Source of the DNA: Knoellia sinensis KCTC 19936
GTDB lineage: Bacteria > Actinomycetota > Actinomycetes > Actinomycetales > Dermatophilaceae
Direction: 5' to 3'
Assembly (NCBI RefSeq): GCF_000768705.1
Contig: NZ_AVPJ01000002.1
Location: 1 to 64,000 of the forward strand
Length of the DNA stretch: 64,000 bases
Shown: in pieces, positions 75 through 64,000 of the stretch
How the letters are laid out: every line of letters starts with the position of its first letter
Position numbering within the stretch: position 1 is the first letter of the stretch
Position numbers and translations under genes: made by a program
Notes under the pieces: model-generated
Told to the model about the DNA's origin: nothing
The model's input: the letters and a program-made list of their open reading frames with translations, nothing else
Database searches by the model: none

Positions 75-770
75 ATGGAGCACACCGCAGTCGTCCTCGT
101 CGCCCACGGAACTCGTGACGTGCGTGGGGCTGAGACCGTGCGGCGGCTGGCGCGCCGCGTCGACGAAGCGCTCCCCACCCAGGAGGTGGCCCTCGCCTAT
201 GTCGACGTGCAGGAACCCCTCGTCGGCGCGGTCCTCGACGACGTCATGACGAGGCACGCCTCGGTGGTGGTGGTGCCGTTGCTGCTGAGCCGTGGCTTCC
301 ATGTCGATGTCGACATCGCCAATGCAGTCGCCGCCCACCCCGGCTCCCGCGCAGTGGCACCTCTGGGCCCCGATCCGCTCCTCGCCCAGCTGCTGGTCGA
401 CCGGCTCGTGGCGGCCGGCGTCGAGCGATCGGCGGACGTCGTGCTCGCCGCCGCCGGATCGAGCCGTCCTGTGGCAGCAGACGATGTGGAGTTCGCCGCC
501 CTTCAGCTGGGCCAGCTCTGGGATGGCCCCGTGACCGTGGCGTATGCCGCTGGCACCGAGCCGTCGGTCGCCTCCGCTGTCGTTGCGGCCAGGGACAGTG
601 GAGCCGACCGCGTGGCCGTCGCGTCGTACCTTCTCGCTGAGGGGTTTTTCCACGACCGACTCGGCGACGCAGGTGCCGACGTCGTCACGCCGGCGCTCGC
701 TGCGGGTGGCGACTCCGACAGCTCAGGACTCGACGCCCTCCTCGCCGTCGTCCTCAGCCGCCTGGTCTAA
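75..770 (+). CDS. CbiX/SirB-like sirohydrochlorin chelatase family protein
   Basis: The 231-aa protein opens with a beta strand and the VAHGTRD motif, which is the N-terminal signature of the CbiX/SirB family. These proteins insert Co2+ or Fe2+ into sirohydrochlorin for cobalamin or siroheme synthesis. Length fits the two-lobed form made of two similar chelatase halves; the second half starts near residue 120 and carries a weak repeat of the fold (VLAAAGSSRP), where G-S-S takes the place of H-G-T. The start is ATG 75; an in-frame GTG at 57 is less likely. The actual metal cannot be told from sequence. Its stop overlaps that of the convergent VOC gene by 4 bp. Whatever lies upstream in the first 74 bases is cut by the window edge. 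Confidence 0.75.
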   Translation: MEHTAVVLVAHGTRDVRGAETVRRLARRVDEALPTQEVALAYVDVQEPLVGAVLDDVMTRHASVVVVPLLLSRGFHVDVDIANAVAAHPGSRAVAPLGPDPLLAQLLVDRLVAAGVERSADVVLAAAGSSRPVAADDVEFAALQLGQLWDGPVTVAYAAGTEPSVASAVVAARDSGADRVAVASYLLAEGFFHDRLGDAGADVVTPALAAGGDSDSSGLDALLAVVLSRLV

Positions 771-1156
771 CTGTCGAGGTTGTGGGCCACGGTGTGGCGC
801 GGCTCGTAGAGCATGACGTCGTCCGCTCCAGGGACGGCCATGAAGACGACGATGCCGAACCCACGGTCCACCGGTTCGGTCGTGAACTCCGCGCCGCGAG
901 ACCGCAGATCGTCCATCGTCGCCGCCAGGTCGTCGCACAGCAGCGAGATCGAATGGTGCTTGGGCGCGTGGAACCCGCCCTCGCCCGTCGTGGGGTGGAC
1001 CCCGAGCTCACTCGGCCCTGACTGGAAGATGAGCCATTCCGGCTCGCCCTCCGGCACCTCGTCGCTGACGAACGGCCACTGCAACACGTCGCGGAAGAAG
1101 GCCCGCGTCGCCGGAGCGTCGTCCGAATAGATGAGCGTGTGCAGTGCGCTGATCAT
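767..1156 (-). CDS. VOC (glyoxalase/bleomycin-resistance) superfamily protein
   Basis: This 129-aa protein has the single-module vicinal-oxygen-chelate pattern. It begins with a beta strand and the LIYSDDAPATRAFFRDVL stretch; the middle has APKHHSISLLCDDL, and the end has a final strand DDVMLYEPRH. Histidines in the first and third strands and a C-terminal glutamate are the expected metal ligands. Members range from glyoxalases and dioxygenases to drug-binding proteins, so the substrate is unknown. The start is ATG 1156, preceded by TACGGT at 1163-1168 with a 6-nt gap and no Shine-Dalgarno sequence, so the transcript is probably leaderless. It converges on the CbiX-like gene with overlapping stops. 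Confidence 0.75.
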   Translation of the reverse strand: MISALHTLIYSDDAPATRAFFRDVLQWPFVSDEVPEGEPEWLIFQSGPSELGVHPTTGEGGFHAPKHHSISLLCDDLAATMDDLRSRGAEFTTEPVDRGFGIVVFMAVPGADDVMLYEPRHTVAHNLDS

Positions 1157-1196
1157 GCTTCGACCGTAGGCCCAAGCGCGCCGCCGTGGCGACCCC

Positions 1197-3130: not shown

Positions 3131-3159
3131 TCCGCCATTGTGGTGCCTACCGTGTACCC

Positions 3160-4563
3160 ATGGTGGAACCTCAGGCACACCGCACCGAATCCGACACGAT
3201 GGGGACCATCGAGGTCCCGGCTGACGCGTACTGGGGTGCACAGACCCAGCGCAGCATCGAGAACTTCGACATCGGGCGCGACACGTTCGTGTGGGGGCGC
3301 CCCATGATCAGGGCGTTGGGGATCCTCAAAAAGGCTGCGGCACAGGCGAATGGTGAGCTCGGCGAGCTCCCTGCCGACGTCGCACAGCTCATCGCACGGG
3401 CGGCCGACGACGTCATCTCGGGTGACCTCGACGCGCAGTTCCCGCTCGTCGTCTTCCAGACCGGGTCCGGCACACAGTCCAACATGAACGCCAATGAGGT
3501 CGTGTCGAACCGCGCCATCGAGCTCGCCGGTGGTGAGCGCGGCTCCAAGACACCGGTCCACCCCAACGACCACGTCAATCGCGGGCAGTCGAGCAACGAC
3601 ACCTTCCCCACGGCCATGCACATCGCCGTCGTGCTCGAGGCGGTCGAGCGGTTGGAGCCTGCGGTCGCGGAGCTGCGCGAGGTCCTCGATGGCAAGCGGA
3701 CGGCATACAAGGACGTCGTCATGGTCGGCCGAACCCACCTCCAGGACGCCACCCCGGTGACACTCGGCCAGGTCTTCGGCGGCTGGGTCGCGCAGCTCGA
3801 CGACGCTTCACAAACCCTTGCGTATGCCGTGGAGTCGACTCGCGCTCTCGCCATCGGCGGGACGGCGGTCGGGACGGGACTCAATGCGCATCCCCGGTTC
3901 GGCGCGCTCACGGCGGAGAGGATCTCTGACGAGACGGGGCAGGCGTTCCGGCAGGCACCGGACCTCTTCGCGGCCCTGTCGGCGCACGACGCGCTGGTCA
4001 ATGTGTCAGCTGGTTTGCGCACCCTGGGCGGGGTGCTCATGAAGCTCGCCAACGATGTGCGGTGGTATGCAAGCGGGCCGCGAAATGGCTTGGGGGAGTG
4101 GAGGATTCCCGAGAACGAACCCGGTTCGTCCATCATGCCCGGCAAGGTCAACCCCACCCAGGCCGAGGCGCTGACGATGGTGGCGACCCGGGTCTTCGGC
4201 AACGACGCCACGGTGGCGTTCGCCGGGTCGCAGGGCAACTTCCAGCTCAATGTCTACAAGCCCGTCATGGCGCACGCGGTGCTCGAGTCGATCCGCCTGC
4301 TGGCTGACGGCTGCCGGTCGTTCACCGAACACTGTGCGCGAGGGATCGAGCCCAACACCGAGCGGATCGAGGCGAACCTCGCGAGCAACCTCATGCTCGT
4401 CACGGCCCTGAACCGGCACATCGGCTACGACAAGGCGGCCGCGATCGCCAAGAACGCCCACAAGAAGGGCATCAGCCTGCGCGAGTCCGCGCTCGAGTCC
4501 GGTGATCTGACCGCGGAGCAGTTCGACGAGTGGGTCGTGCCCGAGGACATGACGCACCCCTGA
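3160..4563 (+). CDS. fumC: class II fumarate hydratase
   Basis: The 467-aa protein matches class II fumarases in length and sequence throughout. The fumarase/aspartase signature [11 protein letters not shown] lies near residues 322-332 and includes the catalytic serine loop. [20 protein letters not shown] near residue 134 carries the active-site residues and the B-site motif. The enzyme interconverts fumarate and L-malate in the TCA cycle and needs no iron-sulfur cluster. The chosen start is ATG 3160 rather than upstream in-frame codons inside the divergent gene's start region. TACCGT at 3148-3153 sits 6 nt before the ATG, with no Shine-Dalgarno sequence, so a leaderless transcript is likely. 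Confidence 0.93.
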
Positions 4564-4603
4564 ACGGCACCGTTAGCAAGGCGCAAGCGCGGACGTCAAG
4601 GTC

Positions 4604-6048: not shown

Positions 6049-7869
6049 ATGGACTTCACCGCACCCTCCCCCCACGGCGGCATGGGCGCCACGCTGGTCG
6101 ACGGCGGCGTGACCTTCCGGGTGTGGGCGCCCCATGCGCTGCACGTCTGGGTCATCGGCGACTTCAACGAGTGGGACAGCGGCAACAACCCGCAGTTCGA
6201 GCGTGACGGCGACGGCAGCTCGGGCACGTGGTCGGTCCACGTCCCGGGGGTGCAGGCCGGGCAGGAATACCAGTTCCAGGTCGACACCGGCTCCGAGGTC
6301 GTGTGGCGGGCCGACCCCTACGCCCGTCAGATGACCAACTCCGTGGGCAACTGCGTTGTCTACGACCCGGATTCGTTCGACTGGGGAGAGAACGGCTTCC
6401 GTATGCCGGATTGGGACGACGTGGTCATCTACGAGATGCACGTGGGCACCTTCGGAGCCGGCGACGTCGAGGGAAGGGGCAGTTTCGAGGCTGCCATCGG
6501 ACGCCTCGACCACCTGCGCGACCTCGGGGTCTCGGTCATCCAGGTGATGCCGCCGTTCGAGTACGCCGGGGACATCTCCTGGGGCTACAACCCGAGTCAC
6601 GTCTTCGCGGTCGAGTCGGGATATGGCGGACCGGACGCCTTCAAGCAGTTCATCAAGGCTGCGCACGAGCACGGCATGGCCGTCATCGCGGACGTCGTCC
6701 ACAACCACATCGGACCCTCGGACCTTGACCTGTGGCGCTTCGACGGCTGGTCCGAGAACGACGGGGGCGGCATCTACTTCTACAACGACTGGCGCGCCCA
6801 GACTCCTTGGGGCGCGACGCGTCCGGACTACGGGCGGCACGAGGTCCGTGGCTTCCTCCGAGACAGTGCGATGCTCTGGCTCGAGGAGTTCCGATGCGAC
6901 GGACTGCGATTCGACGCGACGAACTACATCCGCTCCGTCACCGGCGGGACGTGGGACGGGGGCGCGGCGATCCCCGACGGCGCCGACTACCTGAGCTGGC
7001 TCACGACCGAGATCCGGGACAGCCAGCCCTGGAAGCTGCTCATCGCCGAGGACCTCCAGAACGACCCGACCGTGACGACGATGACCGAGCAGGGCGGGTT
7101 GGGGTTCCACGCGCAGTGGGACGCCGGCTTCGTGCATCCGGTGCGACGGGCCCTGACCGAGCTGAGTGACGAGCACCGGGACATGGGCGCGGTGGCCGGT
7201 GCCATCGACGGTTCGGGCCGAGGACCGGCGGGCAGTCGAGTCATCTACACCGAGTCGCACGACGAGGTCGCGAACGGCAAGACACGACTGCCGGAGGCCG
7301 TCGCGCCCGGCGACGCCGACTCGTGGGCCGCCAAGAAGCGCGCCGCGCTGGGCTTCGTCACCGTGATGTGCTCACCGGGGATCCCGATGCTCTTCCAGGG
7401 GCAGGAGTTCCTCGAGGACCGGTGGTTCGACGACTCGGTCGCCCTCGACTGGGGCAAGTCCGAGGAGCACTCAGGCATCGTCGCCCTCCACCGGGATCTC
7501 ATTCGCCTGCGGCGCAACGCCGAGGGCGTCAGCCGTGGGCTCCGAGGCGTCGGCGCCAACTTCCTGCGCGTCGACAACGAGGCCAAGGTCATCGCCCTGC
7601 ACCGATGGGCCGAGGGCGGGGTTCACGACGACACCGTCGTCGTCCTGAACTTCTCGACGCAGGTGTTCGGCGAGTTCGCGGTGGGCTTCCCGGCGCCGGG
7701 GCTGTGGAAGGTGCGGTTCAACTCCGACTCACCGCTCTATGCCCCGGAGTTCGGCGGGGTCGATGCCTTCGACGTCGACGCGTCGGGGCCGGAGATGGAC
7801 GGCTGTGAGCAGAGTGCCGTCCTCACCCTCGGCCCCTACAGCGCCGTCGTCCTCACCCGCGAGACCTGA
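6049..7869 (+). CDS. glgB: GH13 alpha-glucan branching enzyme-like protein
   Basis: The 606-aa protein has a CBM48-type N-terminal beta domain (about residues 10-100, FRVWAPHALHVWVIGDFNEW), a GH13 TIM barrel, and an alpha-amylase C-terminal beta domain (VIALHRWAEGG onward). The catalytic residues can be placed: nucleophile D289 in DGLRFDAT, acid/base E334 in LLIAEDLQ, and D405 in YTESHDEVANGK. The ESHDE form of the last motif matches branching enzymes rather than trehalose hydrolases (NHDQ). It would transfer alpha-1,4 chains to alpha-1,6 positions in glycogen. TACGTT at 6037-6042 lies 6 nt before ATG 6049. A GlgC-like gene lies 40 kb away, not in an operon with it. Confidence 0.75.
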   Translation: MDFTAPSPHGGMGATLVDGGVTFRVWAPHALHVWVIGDFNEWDSGNNPQFERDGDGSSGTWSVHVPGVQAGQEYQFQVDTGSEVVWRADPYARQMTNSVGNCVVYDPDSFDWGENGFRMPDWDDVVIYEMHVGTFGAGDVEGRGSFEAAIGRLDHLRDLGVSVIQVMPPFEYAGDISWGYNPSHVFAVESGYGGPDAFKQFIKAAHEHGMAVIADVVHNHIGPSDLDLWRFDGWSENDGGGIYFYNDWRAQTPWGATRPDYGRHEVRGFLRDSAMLWLEEFRCDGLRFDATNYIRSVTGGTWDGGAAIPDGADYLSWLTTEIRDSQPWKLLIAEDLQNDPTVTTMTEQGGLGFHAQWDAGFVHPVRRALTELSDEHRDMGAVAGAIDGSGRGPAGSRVIYTESHDEVANGKTRLPEAVAPGDADSWAAKKRAALGFVTVMCSPGIPMLFQGQEFLEDRWFDDSVALDWGKSEEHSGIVALHRDLIRLRRNAEGVSRGLRGVGANFLRVDNEAKVIALHRWAEGGVHDDTVVVLNFSTQVFGEFAVGFPAPGLWKVRFNSDSPLYAPEFGGVDAFDVDASGPEMDGCEQSAVLTLGPYSAVVLTRET

Positions 7870-7988: not shown

Positions 7989-9324
7989 TTGTGTAGGTGT
8001 CGGCGACGGCGAGGGCGGCGTCGAGCTTCTCCAGACCCTCACGCATCTCGGAGGCCGTCGTCGTGCACGGCGGCACGACATGCGTCCGGTTGAAGTGGAT
8101 GAACGGCCACAGCCCCTGCTCCCGGCAGGCCGCCGCGAACGCCCCCATCGGCGCGGCCGCCGCTCCGGACGCATTGAACGGGACCAACGGCTCACGGGAT
8201 TCCTGGGAGCGGACGAGCTCCACGGCATACATGAATCCGACGCCACGGACCTCACCCACGGACGGGTGACTGGCCGCCAACGCCTTCAGGCCGGGCCGCA
8301 GCACGGTCTCCTCGACGCCACGGACGTGCTCGAGGATGCCCTCCTCCTTGAAGATGCCGATCGACGCGACCGCGGAGGCGCAGGCAAGAGGGTGGCCCGA
8401 GTAGGTCAGCCCACCGGGATAGGGCCGGTCGGCGAACGTGTCGGCGATCGTCCGCGAGATGACGACCCCACCGATGGGTACGTATCCCGAGTTCACGCCC
8501 TTGGCGAAGCAGATGAGGTCGGGCGTGACGCCCCAGCGGTCGATGGCGAACCACTCGCCGCACCGCCCGAAGCCCGCCATGACCTCGTCGGCGATGAAGA
8601 CGATGCCGTGCTCGTCGCAGATCTCGCGCACCCCGGCGAGGTAGCGACCCGGAGGCACCAGCACGCCGTTGGTGCCCACCACCGTCTCCAGCATGATCGC
8701 CGCTATCGTCGAGGCGCCCTCGACCATGATCGTGTCGCGCAGGTGCTGGAGTGCGCGCTCGCACTCCTCGGTCTCGGTGCTCGCGTGGAAGGCCGACCGA
8801 TACAGATACGGGCCCCAGAAGTGCACGATCCCCGGCACCGAGGGCTCCGACGGCCACCGGCGCGGTTCGCCCGTCGCGGCGATCGCCCCCGCCGTGGCCC
8901 CGTGGTAGCTGCGGTAGGTCGTGAGAACCTTCTGGCGCCCGGTGTGCAGGCGCGCCATGCGCATCGCGTTCTCGGTCGCCTCGGCGCCGCCGTTGGTGAA
9001 GAACACCGAGTCCAGGTCGCCCGGCGCCAGCTCGGCGATGAGGCGCGCTGCTTCGGAGCGCACGTCGTTGGCGAACGCGGGCGAGACGGTGAGGAGTCGC
9101 TCCGCCTGCTGCTGGATCGCGGCGACGAGCTTGGGGTGCTGGTAGCCGATGTTGACGTTGACGAGCTGGCTCGAGAAGTCGAGGTACTTCGTGCCGTCGG
9201 CGGTCCAGAAGTGCGATCCCTGGGCCTTCGTGATCTCCGCAGGGGTGATCTGGGCCTGAGCGGACCAGGAGTGGAAGACGTGCGCGCGGTCGTCGTCAGT
9301 GGTCGTCGTCACCCTTGGCAGCAT
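7978..9324 (-). CDS. class III PLP-dependent aminotransferase
   Basis: The 448-aa protein is a class III (omega-type) aminotransferase. Seen in order are the substrate-side N-terminal region, SVFFTNGGAEATENAMRMAR for the phosphate-binding loop, FIADEVMAGFGRCG with the PLP-ring aspartate, and the Schiff-base lysine in LICFAKGVNSGY. The closest named groups are taurine-pyruvate, beta-alanine-pyruvate and adenosylmethionine-type enzymes; the donor cannot be fixed from sequence, and the neighbours do not suggest a pathway. It starts at ATG 9324 without an evident Shine-Dalgarno sequence. AT-rich DNA with TTGACC and TTGAAC boxes lies upstream on its strand (about 9350-9375). Confidence 0.85.
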   Translation of the reverse strand: MLPRVTTTTDDDRAHVFHSWSAQAQITPAEITKAQGSHFWTADGTKYLDFSSQLVNVNIGYQHPKLVAAIQQQAERLLTVSPAFANDVRSEAARLIAELAPGDLDSVFFTNGGAEATENAMRMARLHTGRQKVLTTYRSYHGATAGAIAATGEPRRWPSEPSVPGIVHFWGPYLYRSAFHASTETEECERALQHLRDTIMVEGASTIAAIMLETVVGTNGVLVPPGRYLAGVREICDEHGIVFIADEVMAGFGRCGEWFAIDRWGVTPDLICFAKGVNSGYVPIGGVVISRTIADTFADRPYPGGLTYSGHPLACASAVASIGIFKEEGILEHVRGVEETVLRPGLKALAASHPSVGEVRGVGFMYAVELVRSQESREPLVPFNASGAAAAPMGAFAAACREQGLWPFIHFNRTHVVPPCTTTASEMREGLEKLDAALAVADTYTTSA

Positions 9325-9594
9325 ATGGGCCGATTTCGCAACGCGTCGTGGGTCACATGGTCAAAAACTGTTCAATGACCCGCGAGTAGGGCTAACGTGG
9401 CCCCCAGCCGGGCGCGCGTCGTGATCTCCCTGTACCGACGCGCGCCCGTGGCGTGTCTCCGGGCAGGTTGTCGAGCCTCGACAGGACAGGCAGTGTGTAT
9501 GCCGTCCGCCCGCCGTCGGATGATTTGTGCACCTTCCGGTGTTGACACCTCCGAGAACGACCCCACCCCTCCCCGAGTTCCAGGAGATATCCGC

Positions 9595-10113: not shown

Positions 10114-11046
10114 ATGTCGATGCCCTACGTCGCCCTTGGCGATTCGTACGCCGCGGGCGTCGGTGGGGGTGCACGCCGCAGCGAGTGCTGGCGGGCGGTG
10201 GAGGGCTATCCCGTGCTCGTGGGCCGCAGGCTCGGGCTCGACGTCGCCTACCAGGCGTGCCTCGGGGCGACCATCGGCAACGTCCTGCGCGACCAGCTCG
10301 CGGCGCTCGGGCCCGAGACGACACACGTGTCGGTGACCATCGGCGGCAACGACATCGGCTTCGTTCCGGTGCTCGTCGAATGCGCGAAGCCGTCGTGGAT
10401 GGTCGACTCCGACCTGGCCATCGGCGAGGCCCTCGTCATCCTCAGGACGCAGTTGCCCGCTCGCCTGGAGGGTATGTTCGCGAGGATCCGCGACGGTGCG
10501 CCGAGAGCGCGAGTGGTGGCGACGGCATACCCCGTGTTGTTCAACGGTGAGGACTGCAACGCGCTGACGTTCTTCAGCCCCCACGAGATGCGGCGCATCG
10601 AGGCCGGGATCGGTGAACTGGCCGGCGTGATCGAGGGTGCAGCGCGGGCTGTGGGCGTCGAGTTCGTCGATCCTCGGAGCGACTTCGACGGGCACGCCAT
10701 CTGCGACCGGGAGGAGTGGCTCAACGGCGTGGCGTGGCCGCTCGAGGAGTCCTATCACCCGAACCTCGCGGGGCACGCTGCCTATGCGCGGCTCGTGGCG
10801 GGCGCGCTTGCGGCGGGAATGGCGGGCGAGGTCGGTCCGGAGCGTTCAGTGCGGGTGGTCGAGGGGCCGGCCCGCAGGGGTGAGGCGCCGACCTTCCGCC
10901 TCCCGGACCTGCTCTCGACGCAGAGTCTCGACGGGGCGCGACGGTTCGGGTTGAACGTCGAGGTTCTCACGAGGCTGGTGCGGGAGGAGCGCCACGACGA
11001 ACTGCATGCCCTCGACGAACGTGTGCGTGAGCTGCGCGGGCGCTGA
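10114..11046 (+). CDS. SGNH/GDSL hydrolase
   Basis: The 310-aa protein has the three diagnostic SGNH blocks: block I YVALGDSYAAG with the nucleophilic serine near residue 11, block III VTIGGNDIGF with the oxyanion asparagine near residue 75, and block V with the catalytic pair in ESYHPNLAGHAAY near residue 215. Its pattern is that of Streptomyces-type SGNH lipases/esterases, but no signal peptide is visible, so it may be cytoplasmic. The 90 residues after block V are an extension without recognised domain. TTGGAT at 10102-10107 lies 6 nt before ATG 10114, a partial leaderless promoter match. Confidence 0.8.
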   Translation: MSMPYVALGDSYAAGVGGGARRSECWRAVEGYPVLVGRRLGLDVAYQACLGATIGNVLRDQLAALGPETTHVSVTIGGNDIGFVPVLVECAKPSWMVDSDLAIGEALVILRTQLPARLEGMFARIRDGAPRARVVATAYPVLFNGEDCNALTFFSPHEMRRIEAGIGELAGVIEGAARAVGVEFVDPRSDFDGHAICDREEWLNGVAWPLEESYHPNLAGHAAYARLVAGALAAGMAGEVGPERSVRVVEGPARRGEAPTFRLPDLLSTQSLDGARRFGLNVEVLTRLVREERHDELHALDERVRELRGR

Positions 11047-14648: not shown

Positions 14649-14684
14649 GGCACCCAACCTACGTCGCGGCATACCCTCGCCTCC

Positions 14685-15161: not shown

Positions 15162-15227
15162 GCGGATACCTTGAAAACCGGGAGCAAAGAGCGGTGTGTA
15201 TGCCGTCCGCCCACCTTCCGCTCACCC

Positions 15228-16494: not shown

Positions 16495-16535
16495 GGCGCA
16501 CAGCCTGCACCCGGCATACGAGGCATGGGGCAAAG

Positions 16536-20057: not shown

Positions 20058-20105
20058 GAGCGGACGGCATACCGGGGTATTGAAGCCTCGGTATGCCGTC
20101 CGCTC
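20058..20105. terminator. terminator hairpin built from the GTATGCCG octamer
   Basis: GAGCGGACGGCATACCG pairs perfectly with CGGTATGCCGTCCGCTC, a 17-bp stem with a 14-nt loop. It lies between convergent genes (sigma factor and YhgE-like protein). Confidence 0.8.
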
Positions 20106-21966: not shown

Positions 21967-22016
21967 GTGAGCGGACGGCATACGGGATTTCATGCCTTCG
22001 TATGCCGTGTGCTCAC
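21967..22016. terminator. hairpin after the tetR gene, built from the GTATGCCG octamer
   Basis: GTGAGCGGACGGCATACG pairs with CGTATGCCGTGTGCTCAC with a single internal mismatched step, about 16 bp with a 14-nt loop. It is a second hairpin made from octamer copies, like 20058-20105. Confidence 0.75.
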
Positions 22017-27797: not shown

Positions 27798-29888
<2,091 letters not shown>

Positions 29889-46502: not shown

Positions 46503-46543
46503 CCGCCCACGGTAGGCGAACGGCATACGGCAGAGTGAGGCGC

Positions 46544-52174: not shown

Positions 52175-54373
52175 TCAGTTTGCCTCGGTCGGCTCCGTCT
52201 CGGGGGAAGGCGCGGCGGGGATCTCGCGCAGCGTGAGCGAGTCGAGCGGGCCGTCGCCGGGCTCGGGCCGCAAGCACGATCGCTCCGCGGGCTCCTCGGC
52301 AGCGTCCACGCGCGTCCCGTTGACGAGGCTCACGTCGTCGTAGGCAGGCCGCCCCTCGATGACGTTGCGGTAGCGGTAGCGCGTCACCGACGTGAGCCGA
52401 CACGTCTCACCGAACGTCAGGACGTCGAAGGCCGACGGCTGCCCCACGAGTTCCTCGCCGTCCTCCTGACCGACGAAGTGCGTGAGAGGACCTCCGCCGG
52501 TGAACGTGCCGGCCTGGATGCGGTTCCCCTCGAGGTCGGGCGTGTGCATGTGCCCGTTGGCCGTCACGTCGGCGAAGGGCACGTCCTGCACAGCCCACGG
52601 CTCGTGCGAGACCAACAGGTCGAGACGGTCCTGTCCCTCGAACGTGTTGATGAAGGCCTGCTTGGCCGGCTGCTGCTTGTCTCGGCTGCGTTTGCCGTCG
52701 TCGCCGAACCAGCGTGGGTCGTTGAACCCAGCGATTCGTATGCCGCCCACTTCCACGTGCGTGTAGGTCTCCGAATCGGGCTGCAACAGAACGACATTGG
52801 GGATGCTCGCCATGCGGGAGAGGATCGACCGGTCGGTCGGGGAGGTGGCGTCGTGGTTGCCTCGCGTGAAGAGGTAGGGCACCGGAAGTGAGGCGATGCC
52901 CTCGAACATTCCGGAGGCCTCGCCCTCTGCGACGGTCCCGAAGTTCACGAAGTCGCCGGTGTCGATGACGAGGTCGATGTCCTCTTCTTCGACGATCGTG
53001 CGCATGAGGGCGTACTGGTTGCCAGCGTGCAGGTCGGACACGAGGAGCACCCGCAGGGCCACCGGCTGGTTGAGCTCGGTCGGGGAGTACTTGTCCTGGA
53101 GGGCCGCCGACAGCGCGATGAGGTTCCGGAGATAGGGCGAGACCTGCGCGGTGCGCGCCTCCACATCGGAGAGCAGGGACTGGTTGCGCTGGACTGTGCC
53201 GAGGACGCTGGTCGAGGTGAACTCACGTGTGCGCTCGGGCTTGTAGGTCTGCCAGATGGCGACGCCGGTCGCGCCGCACGCAATCGTCCACGCGGTCGCC
53301 GCCGCGACGACGGCCCGAGTGGGTGGTCGGCGGCGTCTCATCAGTGCCGATACACCGAGGCCGAGGAGGGCGACCGCGAGGGCGCCGCCGCCGAAGCGCA
53401 GCCCCACATCCCTTGTGGCTCGCGTGATCGCCGCGCTGAGTTCCAACGGTCCCGGCTGGAGGCTCGACACGCTGATGCCCGGCCGGCTCAGGACATCGGC
53501 GATGGATGACTTCACCTGGGGAGTCGCCTCGATTCCCGGCGCGAGTCCGCTGAAGCTGACGTCGATGTCACCGAAGAGGGTGCGGGCGAGCAAGTGCGTC
53601 GAGTCCCGCGGATCCATGGAGAGCTGGACCTGCGCCGAGTAGTGCGTCGTCTCGGCCGTCGCCGGCGCCAGCCGTGTCCCGGCGACACCTCCCGCTGCAC
53701 ACGCGACCGTGAGGGCGACGACTCCGAGGATTCCGCGCACGCGACGGCTGCCCACGCGGTGGCCCAGCGCCCACCACACCGAGACGGCAGAGGCGAGCGG
53801 CCACAGCGCGAGCAGTCCGGCGACGATGCGCTCGTGGGCACCGAACGGCATACCGGCTCGGAGGCCGACGGTCAGGGAGGCGACGAGGATGAGGAGAACG
53901 ATCGCGGCGGGACGTGCGACGCGAGTTCGGAGGAGCGGTGCCGCAGACGATCCCGCTGCGAACCACGGCCAGCTCGCGAGGAGTGCGAAGCTCAGCGCCG
54001 CGACCACCGTGTGGGCAACCGACCCGTCCGATCGCGACGGCAGGGGCACCAGTGCCACGGCGACGGTGGCCAGGCCCGCGGCGCCCAGCACCCAGCGGCC
54101 GGCCCGGCGCATCCCCGGGATCATCAGCGCCGAACCGATGTGGGCCAGTCCCGTGATGACCAGGGCGGACGTCATGATCCAGCGGTGTGGCGTCTCGACG
54201 GCTGCCAACGCACTGATCGACTCACGCACCCAGTCGAAGCCCGGGGGCTGCTGCATCGCCGCCCAGGTCCATCCGCCCACGAGGGCAAGGAACGCGGTGG
54301 CCGAGCTGAGCAGCGCGCCGCGGGGAAGTCCCGCGGACACGTCCACGCTTCGTTCCTCGCCTTGCTCGGACAT
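52175..54373 (-). CDS. DUF998-metallophosphoesterase fusion membrane protein
   Basis: The 732-aa protein starts with a DUF998-type membrane domain of six or seven segments (residues 20-235; GFDWVRESISALA then GLAHIGSALMIPGMRRAGRW). A stretch of about 80 extracytoplasmic residues and two more membrane segments follow (about 325-375). The C-terminal half (about 435-640) is a calcineurin-like metallophosphoesterase with all five motifs: VSDLHAG, DTGDFVNFG, RGNHD, VSHEPW and NGHMHTPD. A cytoplasmic or periplasmic catalytic head on a membrane anchor fits a lipid or nucleotide phosphate substrate. TAGGGT at 54380-54385 is 6 nt before ATG 54373. Confidence 0.82.
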   Translation of the reverse strand: MSEQGEERSVDVSAGLPRGALLSSATAFLALVGGWTWAAMQQPPGFDWVRESISALAAVETPHRWIMTSALVITGLAHIGSALMIPGMRRAGRWVLGAAGLATVAVALVPLPSRSDGSVAHTVVAALSFALLASWPWFAAGSSAAPLLRTRVARPAAIVLLILVASLTVGLRAGMPFGAHERIVAGLLALWPLASAVSVWWALGHRVGSRRVRGILGVVALTVACAAGGVAGTRLAPATAETTHYSAQVQLSMDPRDSTHLLARTLFGDIDVSFSGLAPGIEATPQVKSSIADVLSRPGISVSSLQPGPLELSAAITRATRDVGLRFGGGALAVALLGLGVSALMRRRRPPTRAVVAAATAWTIACGATGVAIWQTYKPERTREFTSTSVLGTVQRNQSLLSDVEARTAQVSPYLRNLIALSAALQDKYSPTELNQPVALRVLLVSDLHAGNQYALMRTIVEEEDIDLVIDTGDFVNFGTVAEGEASGMFEGIASLPVPYLFTRGNHDATSPTDRSILSRMASIPNVVLLQPDSETYTHVEVGGIRIAGFNDPRWFGDDGKRSRDKQQPAKQAFINTFEGQDRLDLLVSHEPWAVQDVPFADVTANGHMHTPDLEGNRIQAGTFTGGGPLTHFVGQEDGEELVGQPSAFDVLTFGETCRLTSVTRYRYRNVIEGRPAYDDVSLVNGTRVDAAEEPAERSCLRPEPGDGPLDSLTLREIPAAPSPETEPTEAN

Positions 54374-55209: not shown

Positions 55210-55326
55210 CGAGGAATTCGGTGAGATCGGGACTCGCGGGACGGGACCGGGACTGGGGAGACCGGCATACGGGCACTGCCGACACGGGAGGCTTGCCGCA
55301 CGTCATCGGACGATAGGTTGGCCGGC

Positions 55327-56979
55327 ATGGACGCTGACGCACTTGTCGTCGGGGCTGGACTCGCCGGTCTCGTCGCCGCCAACGAACTCGCCGATGCCGG
55401 ACGCTCCGTCGTCCTCCTCGACCAGGAGAGCGAGGCCAACCTCGGCGGCCAGGCGTGGTGGAGCTTTGGCGGACTGTTCCTCGTCGACAGCCCCGAGCAG
55501 CGCCGCATGGGCATCAAGGACACCGTCGACCTCGCCTGGCAGGACTGGCAGGGCACGGCGGGATGGGACCGTGCTGAGGACTACTGGCCGCAGAAGTGGG
55601 GCCGCGCCTATGTCGAGTGGGCGGCCGGCGAGAAGCGAGAGTGGTTGCGCGAGTTCGGGATCAGCTTCTTTCCGGTTGTCGGATGGGCCGAGCGAGGCGA
55701 CGGCCGCGCAGGGGGCCACGGCAACTCGGTCCCGCGGTTCCACATCCCCTGGGGAACGGGGACGGGCGTCGTCACGCCCTTCATCGAGCGCGTGCGCGCG
55801 CACATCGCCGGTGGGCGCATCATCTACCGTCCTCGGCATCGCGTCGACGAGGTCGTGACCTCTGGCGGGGCAGTCACCGGCGTTCGCGGATCCGTTCTCG
55901 GACAGGACAATTCAGCACGAGGTGTCGCCTCCAACCGGGATGTCGTCGGGACCTTCGAGTTCGGTGCACAATGCGTGCTCGTCACGAGCGGCGGAATCGG
56001 CGGCAACCACGACCTCGTGCGCGCCAACTGGCCCGATCGCCTGGGGAAGCCGCCGGAGCACATGATCACCGGTGTGCCCGAATACGTCGACGGCCGAATG
56101 CTGGCCATCACGGAGAAGGCCGGCGGCACGGTCATCAACCGCGACCGCATGTGGCACTACGTGGAGGGCATCAACAACTGGAACCCCGTCTGGCCCAACC
56201 ATGCCATCCGCATCCTTCCGGGCCCGTCGTCGCTGTGGTTCGACGGCAAGGGCGATCGGCTGCCGCCGCCGAACTTCCCGGGCTTCGACACCCTTGGCAC
56301 GCTGTCGCACTTGCGCCAGACCGGCCATGACCACTCCTGGTTCGTCACCAACCATGCTCTGGTCGGCAAGGAGTTCGCGCTGTCCGGTAGCGAGCAGAAC
56401 CTCGACCTCACCGAGCGCAACTACCGCGACGTCGCGAAGCGGCCCATCACCGCGGTGCCGCCTGCGGTGCAGGCGTTCCTCGATCACGGCATCGACTTCG
56501 TCCAGGCCGCGACCCTGCGGGAGCTCGTGGACAAGATGAACGCCTTGACGCCCCACGCACCCGTCGATTTCGCGCACATCGAGCGCCAGGTCCTCGAGCG
56601 GGATCGTCAGATCGACAACCCCTTCACGAAGGACGCGCAGATCGCGGCGATGCACGTGGCGCGTCAGTACCGCGGCGACAAGCTCACCAAGCGCGCCTTC
56701 CCGCCGCACAAGATCCTCGACCCCAAGCGCGGACCGCTCGTGGCCGTGCGCCTCAACATCCTCACCCGCAAGTCACTGGGTGGACTGCAGACCAACCTGG
56801 ATTCGCAGGTCATCGGGACCAACGGCGACCCGGTCGACGGACTGTATGCCGCGGGCGAGGTTGCCGGGTTCGGCGGCGGTGGCGTGCATGGCTACCGCGC
56901 TCTCGAGGGCACGTTCCTCGGCGGGTGCCTCTTCTCGGGTCGCGCAGCGGGACGCGCGGCGGCCGCCCAACTCGGCTGA
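55327..56979 (+). CDS. FAD-dependent dehydrogenase (KstD/fumarate-reductase fold)
   Basis: The 550-aa protein is an FAD-binding-2 family flavoprotein. It opens with ALVVGAGLAGLVAANELADAG (residues 5-25), followed by NLGGQAWWSFGGLFLVDSPEQRRMG, typical of an actinobacterial subgroup of FAD-binding dehydrogenases. The C-terminal FAD site is GLYAAGEVAGFGGGGVHGYRALEGTFLGGCLFSGR (residues 505-540). The substrate could be a steroid or other large lipid, but the active-site residues of KstD are not visible to me. ATG 55327 is 7 nt after TAGGTT (55314-55319), giving a leaderless transcript. Confidence 0.82.
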   Translation: MDADALVVGAGLAGLVAANELADAGRSVVLLDQESEANLGGQAWWSFGGLFLVDSPEQRRMGIKDTVDLAWQDWQGTAGWDRAEDYWPQKWGRAYVEWAAGEKREWLREFGISFFPVVGWAERGDGRAGGHGNSVPRFHIPWGTGTGVVTPFIERVRAHIAGGRIIYRPRHRVDEVVTSGGAVTGVRGSVLGQDNSARGVASNRDVVGTFEFGAQCVLVTSGGIGGNHDLVRANWPDRLGKPPEHMITGVPEYVDGRMLAITEKAGGTVINRDRMWHYVEGINNWNPVWPNHAIRILPGPSSLWFDGKGDRLPPPNFPGFDTLGTLSHLRQTGHDHSWFVTNHALVGKEFALSGSEQNLDLTERNYRDVAKRPITAVPPAVQAFLDHGIDFVQAATLRELVDKMNALTPHAPVDFAHIERQVLERDRQIDNPFTKDAQIAAMHVARQYRGDKLTKRAFPPHKILDPKRGPLVAVRLNILTRKSLGGLQTNLDSQVIGTNGDPVDGLYAAGEVAGFGGGGVHGYRALEGTFLGGCLFSGRAAGRAAAAQLG

Positions 56980-57005
56980 CCGGCATACGGGCTCGTTGCC
57001 GCTGC

Positions 57006-57058: not shown

Positions 57059-57990
57059 AGGTTCATGCGGGCGGCGAGCGTGTCGCGCTTGTCCTCGAAC
57101 CGTGAAGCCTTGGTGTCGAGGTCGTCCATGAACGCCGACAGCTCGAGCCGCGCGGCCTCGCCCTCGTCCGAGAGGCCCTCGAGGTCCCAGACCTTCCAGA
57201 AGCGCAGCACGGGCGCGACGACGTCGTCGCGGTGCTGGCGCAGGTCATAGATCCCTGCCACCGCCATCTCGACGGCCTTGCGCTGGAAGCCCGGGATGTC
57301 GGTGCCGGGCATCTGGAATCCCTTGACGACATCGCGGATCGCCATCATCGACCCGTTGGGGTCGAGCTCGAGTGCAGCGCCCAACAGGTTGCGATAGAAG
57401 ATCATGTGGAGGTTCTCGTCGGCAGCGATCCGCTGGAGCAGCTGGTCGGCCATGGGGTCATCCGTGAACTTGCCGGTGTTGCGGTGCGACACACGCGTCG
57501 CGAGCTCCTGGAAGGACACATAGGCGAGTGAGTGGAGGAGCTCCCCACTGTGGGCGGACTCGTAGCCCTGCGACATGTGCGTCATCCGGAAGTCCTCGAG
57601 CGCCTTGGGGTCGACCATGCGCTTGACGAGCATGTAGTCACGCATCGCGATCCCGTGCCGCCCCTCCTCGGCGGTCCAGCGGTGGACCCACTCACCCCAG
57701 GCGTCGTCGCGACCGAAGATCAGCGCGATCTCGTGGTGGTAGCTCGGGAGGTTGTCCTCGGTGAGCAGGTTGACGATGAGCGCCGAGCGGGCGACCTCCG
57801 AGATCGGTGCGTCGTCCGGGCTCCAGGCCTCGCCATCCATGAGGCCATCGAAGTTGCGGCCGTCGCTCCATGGGATGAACTCGTGCGGATACCACTCCTT
57901 GGCGACGCCGATGTGGCGGTTGAGGTTGGTCTCGACCACCTGGTTCATCTCGCGGAGGAGGTCGGTCTGGCTCCACTGGGTCGCGGTCAT
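57055..57990 (-). CDS. acyl-ACP desaturase (diiron, DesA1/DesA2-like)
   Basis: The 311-aa protein is a soluble fatty-acid desaturase of the acyl-ACP type. The ferritin-like diiron site is visible: EDNLPSYHHEIA near residue 80, TAEEGRHGIAMRD near residue 112 and IAADENLHMIFYRN near residue 190, each supplying E-x-x-H pairs. It would introduce a double bond into acyl-ACP or acyl-CoA and is related to mycobacterial DesA enzymes. ATG 57990 is 7 nt after TAGGTT (57998-58003 on the minus strand). A palindrome overlaps this -10 box and probably binds a repressor. Confidence 0.9.
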   Translation of the reverse strand: MTATQWSQTDLLREMNQVVETNLNRHIGVAKEWYPHEFIPWSDGRNFDGLMDGEAWSPDDAPISEVARSALIVNLLTEDNLPSYHHEIALIFGRDDAWGEWVHRWTAEEGRHGIAMRDYMLVKRMVDPKALEDFRMTHMSQGYESAHSGELLHSLAYVSFQELATRVSHRNTGKFTDDPMADQLLQRIAADENLHMIFYRNLLGAALELDPNGSMMAIRDVVKGFQMPGTDIPGFQRKAVEMAVAGIYDLRQHRDDVVAPVLRFWKVWDLEGLSDEGEAARLELSAFMDDLDTKASRFEDKRDTLAARMNL

Positions 57991-58123: not shown

Positions 58124-59206
58124 TCAGAGGGTGCCGACGCGGCCTCGGCCGCCCGCGGCCCAGCAGGCGCCGTCCGCAGTGCAGTCGAGTGTGTGGAACC
58201 CGACCTCGCTGAACTGGCGCCACGTCCGACCGCCGTCCCCGGAGACGCTGCTACCGCCGACCGGCCCGCTTTCGCCCACGACGATGAGCGAACGACGCAG
58301 GTATGCCGCGTCCTCGCCCAAGTGGGTCAGGTCGCCTCCGCTCGTCCAGGACTCCCCGTTCCGCGTGGTGGCCGACGCGTCGACTCCGTCGGTGGGGGCG
58401 GCAAAGTCGCCACCGACGGCCACACCCTGGCGCGGGTTCTTGAACGCCAGCCCGAAGACACCCGCTGCCTCCCCGGCCGGGATGGTCGACTCGGCCGCGG
58501 TCCACGTGAGCCCGCGGTCGGTCGAGTGGAAGATCCGTGACTTGGCCCCGCCCGAGCCGAACCAGGCGTCGCGACCGGAGATCGTCAGGCAGTCGCCGCT
58601 GGCGGAGAAGTTGAACTCACCTGTCGAGTCGGGCATGCCCGCGTCTGGGAGCACGGACCACGAGCGGCCACCGTCCTCCGTCGAGGCCACCCGGAACTTC
58701 CCGTCGACCGGGTCGCTCACCGCGAGCCCCCGCTTGCCGCCCGGATAGAAGTCGAGGCAGTTGTAGAAGGCCGTCGGCTCGGTGTTGCGGAACGTCTCGG
58801 ACCACGTCTCGCCACCGTCGGTCGTGCGATAGATCCGCGAGTCCTCGCCCTCGCCGATCGCGAGAACCGTTGCAGTCAGGGCGTCCTGGGCCTCGACGTC
58901 CCGGAAGTTCAGACCCGTCGAGCCGGGCGGGCTGACGTCGTCCCAGGAGTCACCGCCGTCCTGTGTGAGATAGACGCGCGCCGCGCCCCCGCTCACGCTG
59001 GCGCCGCTCACCCACGCCGTTGACCGATCCACCGCGTCGAGTCCGCGGAAGCTCTGATCGGCGTCGACGGTCGACACCGACCAGTCGAGTTCGGCCAGTG
59101 AGCCGGGCGGTCCCGAGGAAGGGGCGGCCATCGCGGCGGGAGCCGACAACGCGACGAGCGCGACGGCATACAGGGGAGTGGTGAGCAGTCTCGAGAAGGT
59201 GCGCAT
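58124..59206 (-). CDS. secreted BNR/Ycf48-like beta-propeller protein
   Basis: The 360-aa product has a signal peptide (MRTFSRLLTTPLYAVALVAL, cleavage near AMA-A at residue 29) and then a beta propeller built from BNR-type repeats: RVYLTQDGGDSWDDV, RIYRTTDGGETWSET, RVASTEDGGRSWSVL, RIFHSTDRGLTWTAA, ATTRNGESWTSG and SVSGDGGRTWRQF. S/T-x-D-G-G-x-x-W Asp-box repeats mark five or six blades. Function may be binding rather than hydrolysis. CAGGGT lies 6 nt before ATG 59206, a partial leaderless promoter match. Confidence 0.85.
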   Translation of the reverse strand: MRTFSRLLTTPLYAVALVALSAPAAMAAPSSGPPGSLAELDWSVSTVDADQSFRGLDAVDRSTAWVSGASVSGGAARVYLTQDGGDSWDDVSPPGSTGLNFRDVEAQDALTATVLAIGEGEDSRIYRTTDGGETWSETFRNTEPTAFYNCLDFYPGGKRGLAVSDPVDGKFRVASTEDGGRSWSVLPDAGMPDSTGEFNFSASGDCLTISGRDAWFGSGGAKSRIFHSTDRGLTWTAAESTIPAGEAAGVFGLAFKNPRQGVAVGGDFAAPTDGVDASATTRNGESWTSGGDLTHLGEDAAYLRRSLIVVGESGPVGGSSVSGDGGRTWRQFSEVGFHTLDCTADGACWAAGGRGRVGTL

Positions 59207-61952: not shown

Positions 61953-61980
61953 CGCACCTGCGCCATCCGGCGAGCGGCAC

Positions 61981-62556
61981 TCAGGCGGGCGGGGTCCACG
62001 ACGGGTCGCGCCCGATGAATCCGACGAGCTTGTCGGTGATGTCGGCGCTGGTCGGGACGGGCACCCGCGGACCGTACTGACCCGACTGCCGCAGCATCTC
62101 GTCGTATTGCTCCATCCCGCTGAAGAGCTCGTTCGCGAACTCCTCGTCCATCCGATCCGGCTGACCGGTCGCCCGCGCGAGATCCCAGGTGTGCATGAAG
62201 ACGTCGGCCGTGTAGAACTGGTCGATCGCCTGCGGCAGCGGCACGTCGCCCATGTGGCGATTGCTCAGCACCTTGCCCTCCGACTCCGGGTCGTCGAGGA
62301 TCGCCTGCACCGCGTCCGCATGGGCTGTCCACGCCCCCACCGGGTCGTCGTCGACGCTCGGCCCCTGCGGCAGCCGGATGCCTGCCCCGGCCTCGAGGAA
62401 CCCCGCGAACCACTCGACGAGGTGCCGCACGACATCGCGTGCGGTCCACTCCTCGACGGGCGACGGCACGTCCCAGTCGCTCACCCCTCGCACACGCTCG
62501 GTGAAGGTGCCCGCGATGGCGCGGTGACGTCCGGCTGGGTCTGTCGGCAACGGCAT
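61981..62556 (-). CDS. TIGR03086/maleylpyruvate isomerase-like metal-binding protein
   Basis: The 191-aa protein has the DinB-like four-helix MDMPI fold: TERVRGVSDWDVPSPVEEWTARDVVRHLVEWFAGF at the start, with the metal histidine in VVRHLVEW, and FYTADVFMHTWDLARATGQPDRM with a second histidine. The TIGR03086 group is one of several actinobacterial maleylpyruvate isomerase N-domain families; mycothiol-dependent activity is common but unproven here. CAGACT at 62563-62568 lies 6 nt before ATG 62556. It is close to the FtsX-like gene upstream. Confidence 0.8.
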   Translation of the reverse strand: MPLPTDPAGRHRAIAGTFTERVRGVSDWDVPSPVEEWTARDVVRHLVEWFAGFLEAGAGIRLPQGPSVDDDPVGAWTAHADAVQAILDDPESEGKVLSNRHMGDVPLPQAIDQFYTADVFMHTWDLARATGQPDRMDEEFANELFSGMEQYDEMLRQSGQYGPRVPVPTSADITDKLVGFIGRDPSWTPPA

Positions 62557-62586
62557 ACGAGAAGTCTGTCAGCGATGTCCGACAGA

Positions 62587-64000
62587 TCACGCCGTTCGGT
62601 GGGTCGCGTCCGGAGCCTTCCGTATGCCGGCCGCAGCCAGTCCCGCTGCGACCGCCGGGACCGCGATGGCGAACCCGAGCAGGACGAGCCACGGGAACAC
62701 GAGGACGGGGTCACCGAACTTCTCCATGCCCGTGAGCGGATCCCACGTCCGCGCGGTGAGCGGGTAGGCCAAGGCGATTCCGGGGACGATGCCGACGGCG
62801 ATGCCAAGCACCGCCCCGATGAGGCAGAGCACGAACGCCTGCGCTGCCGCCATGATGCGGCGAGTGCCGCGGCCTGAGCCGAGAGCGGCAAGCGTCGCCT
62901 GGTCGTTCTCCTGCTCAGCCAGCGTGAGCGCCGTCGAGGTCAGGGTGATGACCAGGAGCAGGAGGGTGAAGATCCCGAGGAGGACGGCGATGATCGGGCC
63001 CAGTTCGGAGACGAAGCCACGCTCGGTGACGAGGTAGACCTCGTCGGCAACCCCGAACCCGAGCTGGTCGGACAGGTCCTGGGAGATCGGGCCGGCGGGG
63101 TCGAACATCGTCAACTGGTGGGTTCGTACCGGCCAGCCCTGTGCATTCGCCGTCTCGAGGGTGCCGAGCAGACTGGAGTTCAACAGCGCGCCGAGAGTCG
63201 ATTCCGTGAGCTCGACCTCGATGGCCGGGATGCTCTCGGTCCGGATGTCACGCAGATCGGCCGAGGGGTCGACGATTTCGTTCTCCGCCGGGTCGACCGT
63301 CTGGCTCGCGGTCATGACGCTGATGGTGCCGTCGGTGAGCATGCTGGGTGACCCCGGGGGGCGCGCAACGACCACCGCACCGTCGAGTACGGCGGGGATG
63401 GCAGCGGTCTGGCCGATCGCGGTGAGGCGACGGCGCATCTCGTCCGGCGCCACGAAGTTCATCGATGAGCCGGTGCCGGAGACGCCATGCGTGCCGATCC
63501 GTTGACACGGCGGGCTCTGCACGCTCTCTGTCCAGTTGAACCCGACGTCGAAGACCGTCTGCTTCGCCGTGCATCCCGGAGGCACGACGTTGACTGCCTT
63601 GACGTCGTAGGGCTTGGTCGGCGGGACCGGGTTCACTGAGTTCATCATCGGGTCGCCCGAGTCGATGGCCGCCACCGGTGAGACGACCAAACCGGGGCGG
63701 ATTGCGCGGAAGTCCGCACTGATGCGTTCGACAGCTGCGGCGTCGAGGTTCGTCCCTCCAGCGAAGACCGTCGTGTCCCCGGGGAGGTTCTGCGCGACGT
63801 ACTCGCGGCGGCTCTGCTCCTCGTCGCTGCCGCTCGCGATGAGGGTCATCGTGAGAACGGCGACCCCGGCGAGGATGGCCGCGATGGCCGGGACGCTGCG
63901 GGTGCGCTGGCGACCGGCGTCGCGGGTGGCCATGCGGAGCGAGACGGGGAGGCGAGAACTGATCCGCGCGATGCCCACGAGGATCACCGGCGACAGCATC
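62587..64000 (-). CDS. FtsX-like ABC permease, C-terminal part (5' end cut by window)
   Basis: The visible 471 residues are the second half of an FtsX/MacB-type permease. It starts with ARISSRLPVSLRMATRDAGRQRTRSVPAIAAILAGVAVL, the junction before a membrane segment, then a large extracytoplasmic domain (about residues 50-335) and three C-terminal membrane segments (about 338-360, 385-415 and 435-460) with LAEQENDQATLAALGSGRGTRRIMAAAQAF between the first two. The protein continues off the right edge on its 5' side. With an ATPase it would form an exporter or regulate cell-wall hydrolases. The stop is at 62587-62589. Confidence 0.8.
   Translation of the reverse strand, partial: MLSPVILVGIARISSRLPVSLRMATRDAGRQRTRSVPAIAAILAGVAVLTMTLIASGSDEEQSRREYVAQNLPGDTTVFAGGTNLDAAAVERISADFRAIRPGLVVSPVAAIDSGDPMMNSVNPVPPTKPYDVKAVNVVPPGCTAKQTVFDVGFNWTESVQSPPCQRIGTHGVSGTGSSMNFVAPDEMRRRLTAIGQTAAIPAVLDGAVVVARPPGSPSMLTDGTISVMTASQTVDPAENEIVDPSADLRDIRTESIPAIEVELTESTLGALLNSSLLGTLETANAQGWPVRTHQLTMFDPAGPISQDLSDQLGFGVADEVYLVTERGFVSELGPIIAVLLGIFTLLLLVITLTSTALTLAEQENDQATLAALGSGRGTRRIMAAAQAFVLCLIGAVLGIAVGIVPGIALAYPLTARTWDPLTGMEKFGDPVLVFPWLVLLGFAIAVPAVAAGLAAAGIRKAPDATHRTA

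Follow-up and report, generated by a model that had tools for sequence, protein, structure and literature searches.

An exactly conserved, highly iterated octamer of Knoellia sinensis and its relatives as the core of a putative self-DNA tag

The 64,000-nucleotide stretch of Knoellia sinensis KCTC 19936 analyzed here (assembly GCF_000768705.1, contig NZ_AVPJ01000002.1, positions 1 to 64,000; referred to as the window) contains 53 exact copies of the octamer GTATGCCG, 25 on the plus strand and 28 on the minus strand, where it appears as CGGCATAC, against chance expectations of 2.34 under a third-order Markov model and 0.81 in dinucleotide shuffles. From its numbers, its conservation, and its arrangement on the two strands, we consider it reasonably probable that GTATGCCG is the core of a putative self-DNA tag that would work like the DNA uptake sequences, in a lineage of the Gram-positive Intrasporangiaceae. 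A preliminary description of the window had put the total at about 52 copies (24 and 28), with 2 to 3 expected; its minus-strand count and its expectation agree with ours, its plus-strand count was one short, and the seven inner coordinates it gave were correct to within 0 to 2 bases.

RESULTS

Enrichment of the octamer in the whole genome

In the whole genome (G000; 3,987,063 bases, or 3.99 Mb, in 61 contigs), GTATGCCG occurs 1251 + 1234 = 2,485 times on the two strands, compared with 35 + 33 = 68 occurrences of the reversed word, which served as the whole-genome control. The Markov expectation was applied to an 852-kb sample of this genome, in which 511 copies were found and 22.7 expected, a 22-fold excess; the one-substitution variants of the octamer reach at most 2.4 times expectation in the same sample. 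The preliminary description had called the octamer a highly iterated genomic word and had named a count near the Markov expectation as the result that would speak against it; the word is borne out as such by these figures and by the exact conservation described below. The longer form that it had seen recurring, together with its reverse complement, corresponds to the 13-mer GTATGCCGTCCGC, which contains the octamer and is present 349 times in the genome (0 for the reversed 13-mer) and 8 times in the window, with 4 copies on each strand. Octamer counts in 10-kb bins are close to random (variance/mean, 0.94), and the GC content of these bins has no predictive value for the number of octamers (rho, 0.05).

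Conservation of the exact octamer in a second Knoellia genome

Contig C1 of G000 was compared by blastn with 400 kb of a second Knoellia genome (G129), and segments were discarded if they were shorter than 300 bp or if their overlap with better segments exceeded 30%. The 265,807 aligned bases, with a mean identity of 80%, contain 182 of the 343 octamers of C1. Conservation of positions between related genomes, a check that the preliminary description had proposed, turned out to be high: 146 of the 182 octamers are conserved exactly, compared with 22,785 of 84,124 (27%) other octamers with five G+C, and, starting from G129, 146 of its 199 aligned copies are retained in G000. GTATGCCG is surpassed by only one of 421 common octamers (median, 24%), the overlapping GGCATACC. 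Identity exceeds the codon-position baseline by 0.08 to 0.24 at each of the eight octamer positions (0 to 7); in the tested flanks the excess is at most 0.044, with a value of −0.05 at the enriched T (+8) described below. The unit that is preserved is the exact octamer.

Orientation-specific spacing and strand balance

Copies in the same orientation avoid one another at short range. At distances of 60 to 1,000 bp, 56 same-orientation pairs were seen in the 852-kb sample and 144 expected under independence (0.39 overall and 0.26 to 0.65 in individual bins); the ratio is 0.49 to 0.62 at 1,000 to 1,400 bp and 0.86 to 1.15 beyond. Pairs in opposite orientation remain at 0.89 to 1.13 of expectation at 150 to 1,400 bp and at 0.79 to 1.45 beyond, and below 150 bp they rise to 2.1 to 3.4 times expectation, a hairpin excess taken up in the next section. 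When orientations were shuffled 2,000 times within 40-kb blocks, a mean of 104.3 same-orientation pairs was obtained (standard deviation [SD], 7.1; minimum, 80), compared with the 56 observed, and GTATGCCG has the lowest same/opposite ratio of 60 octamers compared, each with 300 to 900 copies and at least 60 pairs (log2 of −1.19 versus a mean of 0.14 and an SD of 0.28). An orientation bias arising through gene position was considered and rejected, because the depletion at 150 to 1,000 bp persists within single genes (12 same, 53 opposite), between genes (16 same, 30 opposite), and in pairs with intergenic copies (19 same, 47 opposite). The 623 one-mismatch sites follow no orientation rule, either among themselves or toward true octamers.

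Neighboring copies in the window that are less than 1.4 kb apart are in opposite orientation in 30 of 34 cases. Over the whole sample, neighbors at least 1.5 kb apart comprise 137 opposite and 87 same pairs, neighbors in G129 comprise 192 opposite and 89 same pairs, and at 35 further loci (33 from other genera and 2 from Knoellia remsis) the orientation rule holds below 600 bp. The plus and minus copies form two arrays spaced independently of each other; in Knoellia the refractory length of each is about 1.3 kb. No clear strand preference was found in 23 blocks of at most 40 kb covering the 852 kb (widest difference, 20 versus 13; the origin was not located), in keeping with the preliminary description, and the balance in fact goes beyond chance, with a chi-square of 5.98 at 22 degrees of freedom over these blocks. 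The strand difference in nine whole Knoellia genomes amounts to 0.12 of the Poisson variance; it is 0.60 for the octamer in the 82 octamer-rich genomes defined below and 1.14 for the reversed word in 149 genomes.

Gene context, flanks, and predicted hairpins

Genes were called with a simple in-house caller, so that start positions are uncertain. Octamer density in the 852-kb sample is 0.914/kb outside and 0.519/kb inside called genes. Counts of copy anatomy came from the first 464 kb (279 copies), where 198 copies (71%) lie within called genes, with all six frames represented; among 196 coding placements, 145 correspond to TAT GCC or GCA TAC, and the base after the core is T in 59% of the 279 copies. 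Flank preferences outside called genes are weak (A at −8, T at +8, and a CCGCTCRCCT-like tail), and some intergenic copies have a longer common consensus near GTATGCCGTCCGCTCRCC.

Opposed octamers lie within 60 bp of each other in 27 cases in the 852 kb, 20 of them outside called genes, and about 10% of all copies (54 of 511) belong to such pairs. Many of the pairs outside genes are 10 to 45 bp from a called 3' end, and 9 of the 20 sit between converging genes, compared with 124 of 618 neighboring gene pairs. Their folding energies range from −13 to −55 kcal/mol, as calculated with no shuffle control, and some have a T run flanking the stem. Most of the hairpins predicted for close opposed pairs lie outside genes, close to a gene end.

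Two long octamer-poor stretches of contig C1 (35.6 to 48.3 kb and 218 to 240 kb) have a lower GC content (0.63 to 0.65) and, judged by eye, hold surface-polysaccharide-like gene clusters, perhaps acquired recently. The four regions with the largest octamer gaps include two lower-GC clusters of polysaccharide type and two regions that are not of this kind; depletion of the octamer in foreign DNA is only suggestive.

Distribution among relatives

We sampled 149 genomes of the family, taken as Intrasporangiaceae (Micrococcales) after the NCBI placement of Knoellia remsis. By thresholds of our own setting, genomes were called rich at 120 or more copies/Mb together with at least 2.4 times the count of the reversed word, and poor below 40 copies/Mb; 82 genomes from 30 genera were rich (median, 492 copies/Mb), 53 from 21 genera were poor, and 14 fell in between, with both rich and poor genomes in genera g25 and g35. 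Knoellia remsis has 1622 + 1655 copies of GTATGCCG, compared with 114 + 162 of the reversed word. Named genomes were taken from 24 of the 79 loci of the ComEC alignment scan: the rich ones are Phycicoccus elongatus Lp2, Intrasporangium oryzae, Humibacillus xanthopallidus, Arsenicicoccus bolidensis, an uncultured Tetrasphaera, Terrabacter sp. Root85, and three Ornithinimicrobium, and the poor ones are Janibacter indicus, Intrasporangium flavum, Dermacoccus abyssi, and one uncultured Phycicoccus. In a class-wide sample of 296 genomes (6 from Intrasporangiaceae and 290 from outside), none of the 290 stands out for GTATGCCG when the counts are judged by eye; the highest density noticed among them was 196 + 190 copies in 7.5 Mb (about 51/Mb), compared with 92 + 84 of the reversed word.

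A one-base dialect and other enriched words

The main word of a Phycicoccus metagenome-assembled genome (G012) is GAATGCCG, with 1561 + 1574 copies versus 19 + 8 of the reversed word; the other 56 genomes have 5 to 220 copies per strand, except G051 (367 + 363). In 108 kb of G012, GAATGCCG pairs at 60 to 1,000 bp comprise 16 in the same and 32 in opposite orientation, and cross pairs between GAATGCCG and GTATGCCG at 60 to 600 bp are mostly opposite as well (8 same, 21 opposite), so that the two words seem interchangeable. GAATGCCG is a one-base dialect of GTATGCCG in one relative.

Another word, GTACGCCG, was considered as a dialect and rejected. It is abundant in octamer-poor or intermediate genomes (G040, 1942 + 1961; G048, 1309 + 1309; G081, 1185 + 1181; G023, 1081 + 1135; G069, 737 + 726; G024, 687 + 672), and 400 kb of G040 showed no clear orientation spacing, excess of close opposed pairs, or flank preferences; it is co-enriched there with CGTACGCC, CGTCGTAC, and CGTACGAC, and some other actinomycetes have it at up to 9 times its one-substitution neighbors. 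The strong enrichment of these four GTAC-containing words was seen in C1:1,000,001-1,400,000 (L226 to L245) of G040, an octamer-poor genome in which TATCGAGA/CTCGATAC is strongly enriched in the same stretch. The octamer-poor G037, G038, G126, and Janibacter indicus have a different enriched word, CCCCCTTC(G) or (C)GAAGGGGG, present at up to 23 copies per 20 kb versus 1.5 expected (L042, L043, L075, L076, and L093; genera g37 and g38 and Janibacter indicus).

Competence genes

ComEC was found in 145 of the 149 family genomes, ComEA lies beside ComEC in 20 of 20 regions compared, and TadE was found in 40 of 41 examined, in each case in rich and poor genomes alike; on the ComEC and ComEA counts, loss of competence genes was rejected as the explanation of the poor genomes. 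K. sinensis itself has a Tad locus and DprA, the latter having been looked for in this genome only. Of 22 Tad regions compared, 9 from rich and 4 from poor genomes hold core genes of its own Tad locus, and the other 9 regions hold a different TadE locus and are not comparable. Transformation of the actinobacterium Micrococcus luteus depends on Flp pili, the products of tad genes, and this species also has comEA and comEC (PMC4322843); the term "uptake sequence" does not appear in the available text of that paper. A type IVa pilus was rejected as the uptake machine: PilM (PF11104) had no match in G000 and was found in 5 of the 149 family genomes, and N_methyl pilins were found in 2 of 56 genomes. 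In one GTATGCCG-poor genome (G069, a single contig, L071) ComEC aligns in two reading frames, as after a frameshift, yet two genomes of its genus are rich; ComEC matches that are only partial are found among rich as well as poor genomes, and no association was seen.

Positions in the window

All copies in the window were located by exact match. The 13-mer GTATGCCGTCCGC is found on the plus strand at 9497-9509 (octamer, 9497-9504), 15198-15210 (octamer, 15198-15205; outside called genes), 20091-20103 (octamer, 20091-20098), and 31007-31019 (octamer, 31007-31014), and on the minus strand at 3696-3708 (octamer, 3701-3708), 20060-20072 (octamer, 20065-20072), 21971-21983 (octamer, 21976-21983), and 30877-30889 (octamer, 30882-30889). 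The copies at 20060-20072 and 20091-20103 are the left and right arms of a hairpin with convergent genes on both sides, and the stretch has a predicted folding energy of −49.2 kcal/mol. A second hairpin (predicted folding energy, −35.7 kcal/mol) has the 13-mer at 21971-21983 as its left arm and the plus-strand octamer at 22000-22007 as its right arm; it lies 18 bp past a called gene and is overlapped by a called open reading frame of uncertain start.

The other plus-strand octamers are at 542-549, 1284-1291, 2852-2859, 3822-3829, 6401-6408, 27999-28006, 30072-30079, 35171-35178, 36695-36702, 39447-39454, 41481-41488, 42746-42753, 43553-43560, 45405-45412, 46657-46664, 51033-51040, 52738-52745, 56844-56851, 58301-58308, and 62622-62629. 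Those on the minus strand are at 2250-2257, 8223-8230, 10523-10530, 13067-13074, 14667-14674, 16512-16519, 20523-20530, 23549-23556, 27858-27865, 31108-31115, 32691-32698, 36895-36902, 39041-39048, 40648-40655, 41239-41246, 42658-42665, 46206-46213, 46521-46528, 51641-51648, 53846-53853, 55263-55270, 56981-56988, 59164-59171, and 62551-62558, of which the copies at 51641, 55263, 56981, and 62551 lie outside called genes. Five copies had been described as noncoding; this holds for those at 15198, 55263, and 56981, and those at 9497 and 16512 lie inside called open reading frames, near uncertain starts.

A second repeated element in this genome has the palindrome CCAATTGG as its core, with 34 occurrences in the 852 kb. 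Seventeen copies form a tandem array with a 29-bp period on contig C2 at about 57,100 to 57,630 (L021), and the others are single or in facing pairs. The element is also seen in the window at 55122 and 55165.

DISCUSSION

The preliminary description had offered three kinds of explanation, a HIP1-like word (highly iterated palindrome), an uptake signal, and a chromosome-organization signal. Uptake fits best, HIP1 itself is excluded, and polarized signals are disfavored; our preference for uptake is based on the nonpalindromic core, the hairpins near gene ends, the one-base dialect, and the competence genes. Natural transformation would proceed via Flp (Tad) pili and ComEA/ComEC, with a receptor or import step that would recognize the octamer in only one of its orientations with respect to the strand being imported. 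One octamer per strand per approximately 1.3 kb would then be of benefit to a fragment, a second same-orientation copy adding nothing and an opposite copy serving the other strand; favored uptake and recombination of tagged fragments could spread and keep the word by molecular drive, and the hairpin pairs may be used secondarily as terminators. If uptake is indeed involved, the independence of the two orientations would tie recognition to the entering strand or to the direction of threading, since orientation-blind recognition would have thinned opposite pairs too. In its fullest form, GTATGCCG would be the first Gram-positive DNA uptake sequence, read strand-wise by the Flp-pilus/ComEA-ComEC machinery through a receptor unrelated to type IV minor pilins, and the two self-spacing arrays would be the imprint of strand-specific import at about 1.3 kb per tag; we regard this extended proposal as an even call.

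Several observations weigh against a role in uptake. ComEC, ComEA, and TadE do not explain which genomes carry the word, being as common in poor genomes as in rich ones, and the four genomes with no ComEC match (each in at least 330 contigs) are three rich ones and one intermediate. Type IV pilin N termini (PF07963) were detected neither in G000 nor in 53 of 55 other genomes, which makes a ComP-like receptor unlikely, although a very divergent pilin could escape such a search; comparisons of pilins and Tad loci yielded no candidate receptor, and the Tad locus was rejected as the source of a receptor confined to rich genomes, as its core genes were present on both sides of the rich/poor divide in the regions that could be compared. 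Uptake in Haemophilus influenzae is reportedly independent of orientation (PMC1939737), so that the orientation rule is no known property of uptake sequences. The rule itself is weaker and of shorter range outside Knoellia, where some genomes are nearly without it (G148, 18 opposite and 16 same; G060, 6 opposite and 8 same), and in the window neighbors at least 1.4 kb apart are in the same orientation in 14 of 18 cases, which is not so over the whole sample. In G012, pairs of GTATGCCG at 60 to 1,000 bp do not follow the rule (9 same, 6 opposite), and below 60 bp the GAATGCCG pairs number 5 in the same and 2 in opposite orientation. A scan of viral sequences with a 15-bp form matched 35 viral stretches, compared with 14 for the reversed word, and was uninformative.

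The main rival is a Chi-like signal, in which a helicase-nuclease other than RecBCD (e.g., AdnAB) would read the octamer in one orientation from a double-strand end and each orientation would be needed once per 1 to 2 kb. An exact asymmetric octamer, inert one-mismatch words, and two orientation-specific arrays would all suit a directional reader of DNA ends, and yet we judge this explanation unlikely. RecC, the Chi-reading subunit, had no match in G000 or in 8 other Knoellia, on which ground Chi proper, as read by RecBCD, was rejected; RecC is also commoner in poor genomes (29 of 53) than in rich ones (25 of 82), the search having been aimed at RecC. No 40-kb block shows a strand bias, whereas Chi and the KOPS (FtsK-orienting polar sequences) of Escherichia coli are strand polarized, with KOPS pointing toward the terminus. 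DNA end-processing enzymes are widespread, whereas the word is restricted in the class-wide sample to a subset of one family; hairpins close to gene ends, like dialects, are traits of uptake sequences. There is a smaller chance that the octamer is a chromosome-organization or methylation word in the manner of HIP1, recognized by an abundant nucleoid protein or an orphan methyltransferase and kept by repair or selection. Its density and its wide, nearly random spread are similar to those of such words, but GTATGCCG is not a palindrome, whereas HIP words are palindromic and linked to methyltransferases (PMC4390886), and a bound protein would have no obvious reason to space sites of the same orientation while ignoring opposite ones.

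Two further explanations are very improbable. A dispersed mobile repeat carrying the octamer, of the repetitive extragenic palindrome or miniature inverted-repeat transposable element type, could account for the longer consensus near GTATGCCGTCCGCTCRCC in some intergenic copies, but most copies have only the octamer and weak flanks in common, the majority lie in called genes in all frames, and the excess of conservation stops at the octamer; for the octamer overall this origin is refuted. Codon-pair or compositional bias (Tyr-Ala, Ala-Tyr), which the preliminary description had named as a possible full explanation, is favored by the predominance of TAT GCC and GCA TAC among coding placements, and we give it next to no weight: the counts refute it, the octamer being denser outside genes than inside, used in all six frames, far more enriched than its variants, and conserved at all eight positions.

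In the papers cited here, consulted in the portions of text available, uptake sequences are described only for Neisseriaceae and Pasteurellaceae. The titles and abstracts covered by our literature search, from which most subscription papers and preprints fall outside, contain no report of uptake sequences in Actinobacteria, and in none of the papers it covered is GTATGCCG printed as a separate word. If the octamer is an uptake sequence, it would be a third, independent case, in Actinobacteria, making convergent evolution of self-DNA recognition testable; natural transformation would be expected to be frequent in Knoellia, Phycicoccus, Terrabacter, Ornithinimicrobium, and their relatives, and the receptor would be expected to be of a novel type. 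Should a Chi-like role prove correct instead, the octamer would give genomes with no detected RecC a directional signal with an unknown reader. Orientation-specific spacing is a quantitative signature that can be applied to any genome with an iterated word, and it tells strand-reading signals from words bound regardless of orientation.

Compared with known systems, GTATGCCG differs from KOPS in having no polarity in the 852 kb (with the origin not located). It resembles HIP1 of cyanobacteria as a highly iterated octamer, but HIP1 is palindromic and methyltransferase linked (PMC4390886), and GTATGCCG is not its own reverse complement, which excludes HIP1 itself. Like Chi (RecBCD, AddAB), it is an exact asymmetric octamer that could act directionally; unlike Chi, it occurs with no detected RecC, has no strand bias, is limited to one lineage, and is more strongly enriched. 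The uptake signal sequence (USS) of Pasteurellaceae, AAAGTGCGGT (PMC2346458), is unrelated in sequence, its cores AAGTGCGGT and ACAAGCGGT differ from GTATGCCG, and its uptake is the reportedly orientation-independent one noted above (PMC1939737). Similarities to USS are the short asymmetric core, a spacing that averages about 1 kb for USS (PMC7811141), and the proportion in inverted pairs, about 10% for uptake sequences (PMC1939737); in H. influenzae, USS pairs are found at terminators (PMC7811141). The DNA uptake sequence (DUS) of Neisseriaceae differs from the system described here in several respects: a CTG core is present in all DUS dialects (PMC3630211) and absent from GTATGCCG and GTATGCCGTCCGC, the conserved core is shorter here, the host is Gram positive with no type IV pilin signature in G000 and hence probably no ComP-type receptor, and orientation-specific spacing is not described for DUS, or for uptake sequences generally, in the available text of the papers cited. 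The 13-mer GTATGCCGTCCGC and the DUS 12-mer ATGCCGTCTGAA (PMC2346458) have the eight letters ATGCCGTC in common, which, with the essential CTG core absent, is probably a coincidence. The likeness to DUS lies in the number of copies per genome (2,485 here and some two thousand for DUS), in inverted pairs at terminators (here hairpins predicted from position and folding), in single-base dialects, two of which occur in one genome in Simonsiella muelleri (PMC3630211), and in the presence of competence genes, here ComEC, ComEA, DprA, and Tad.

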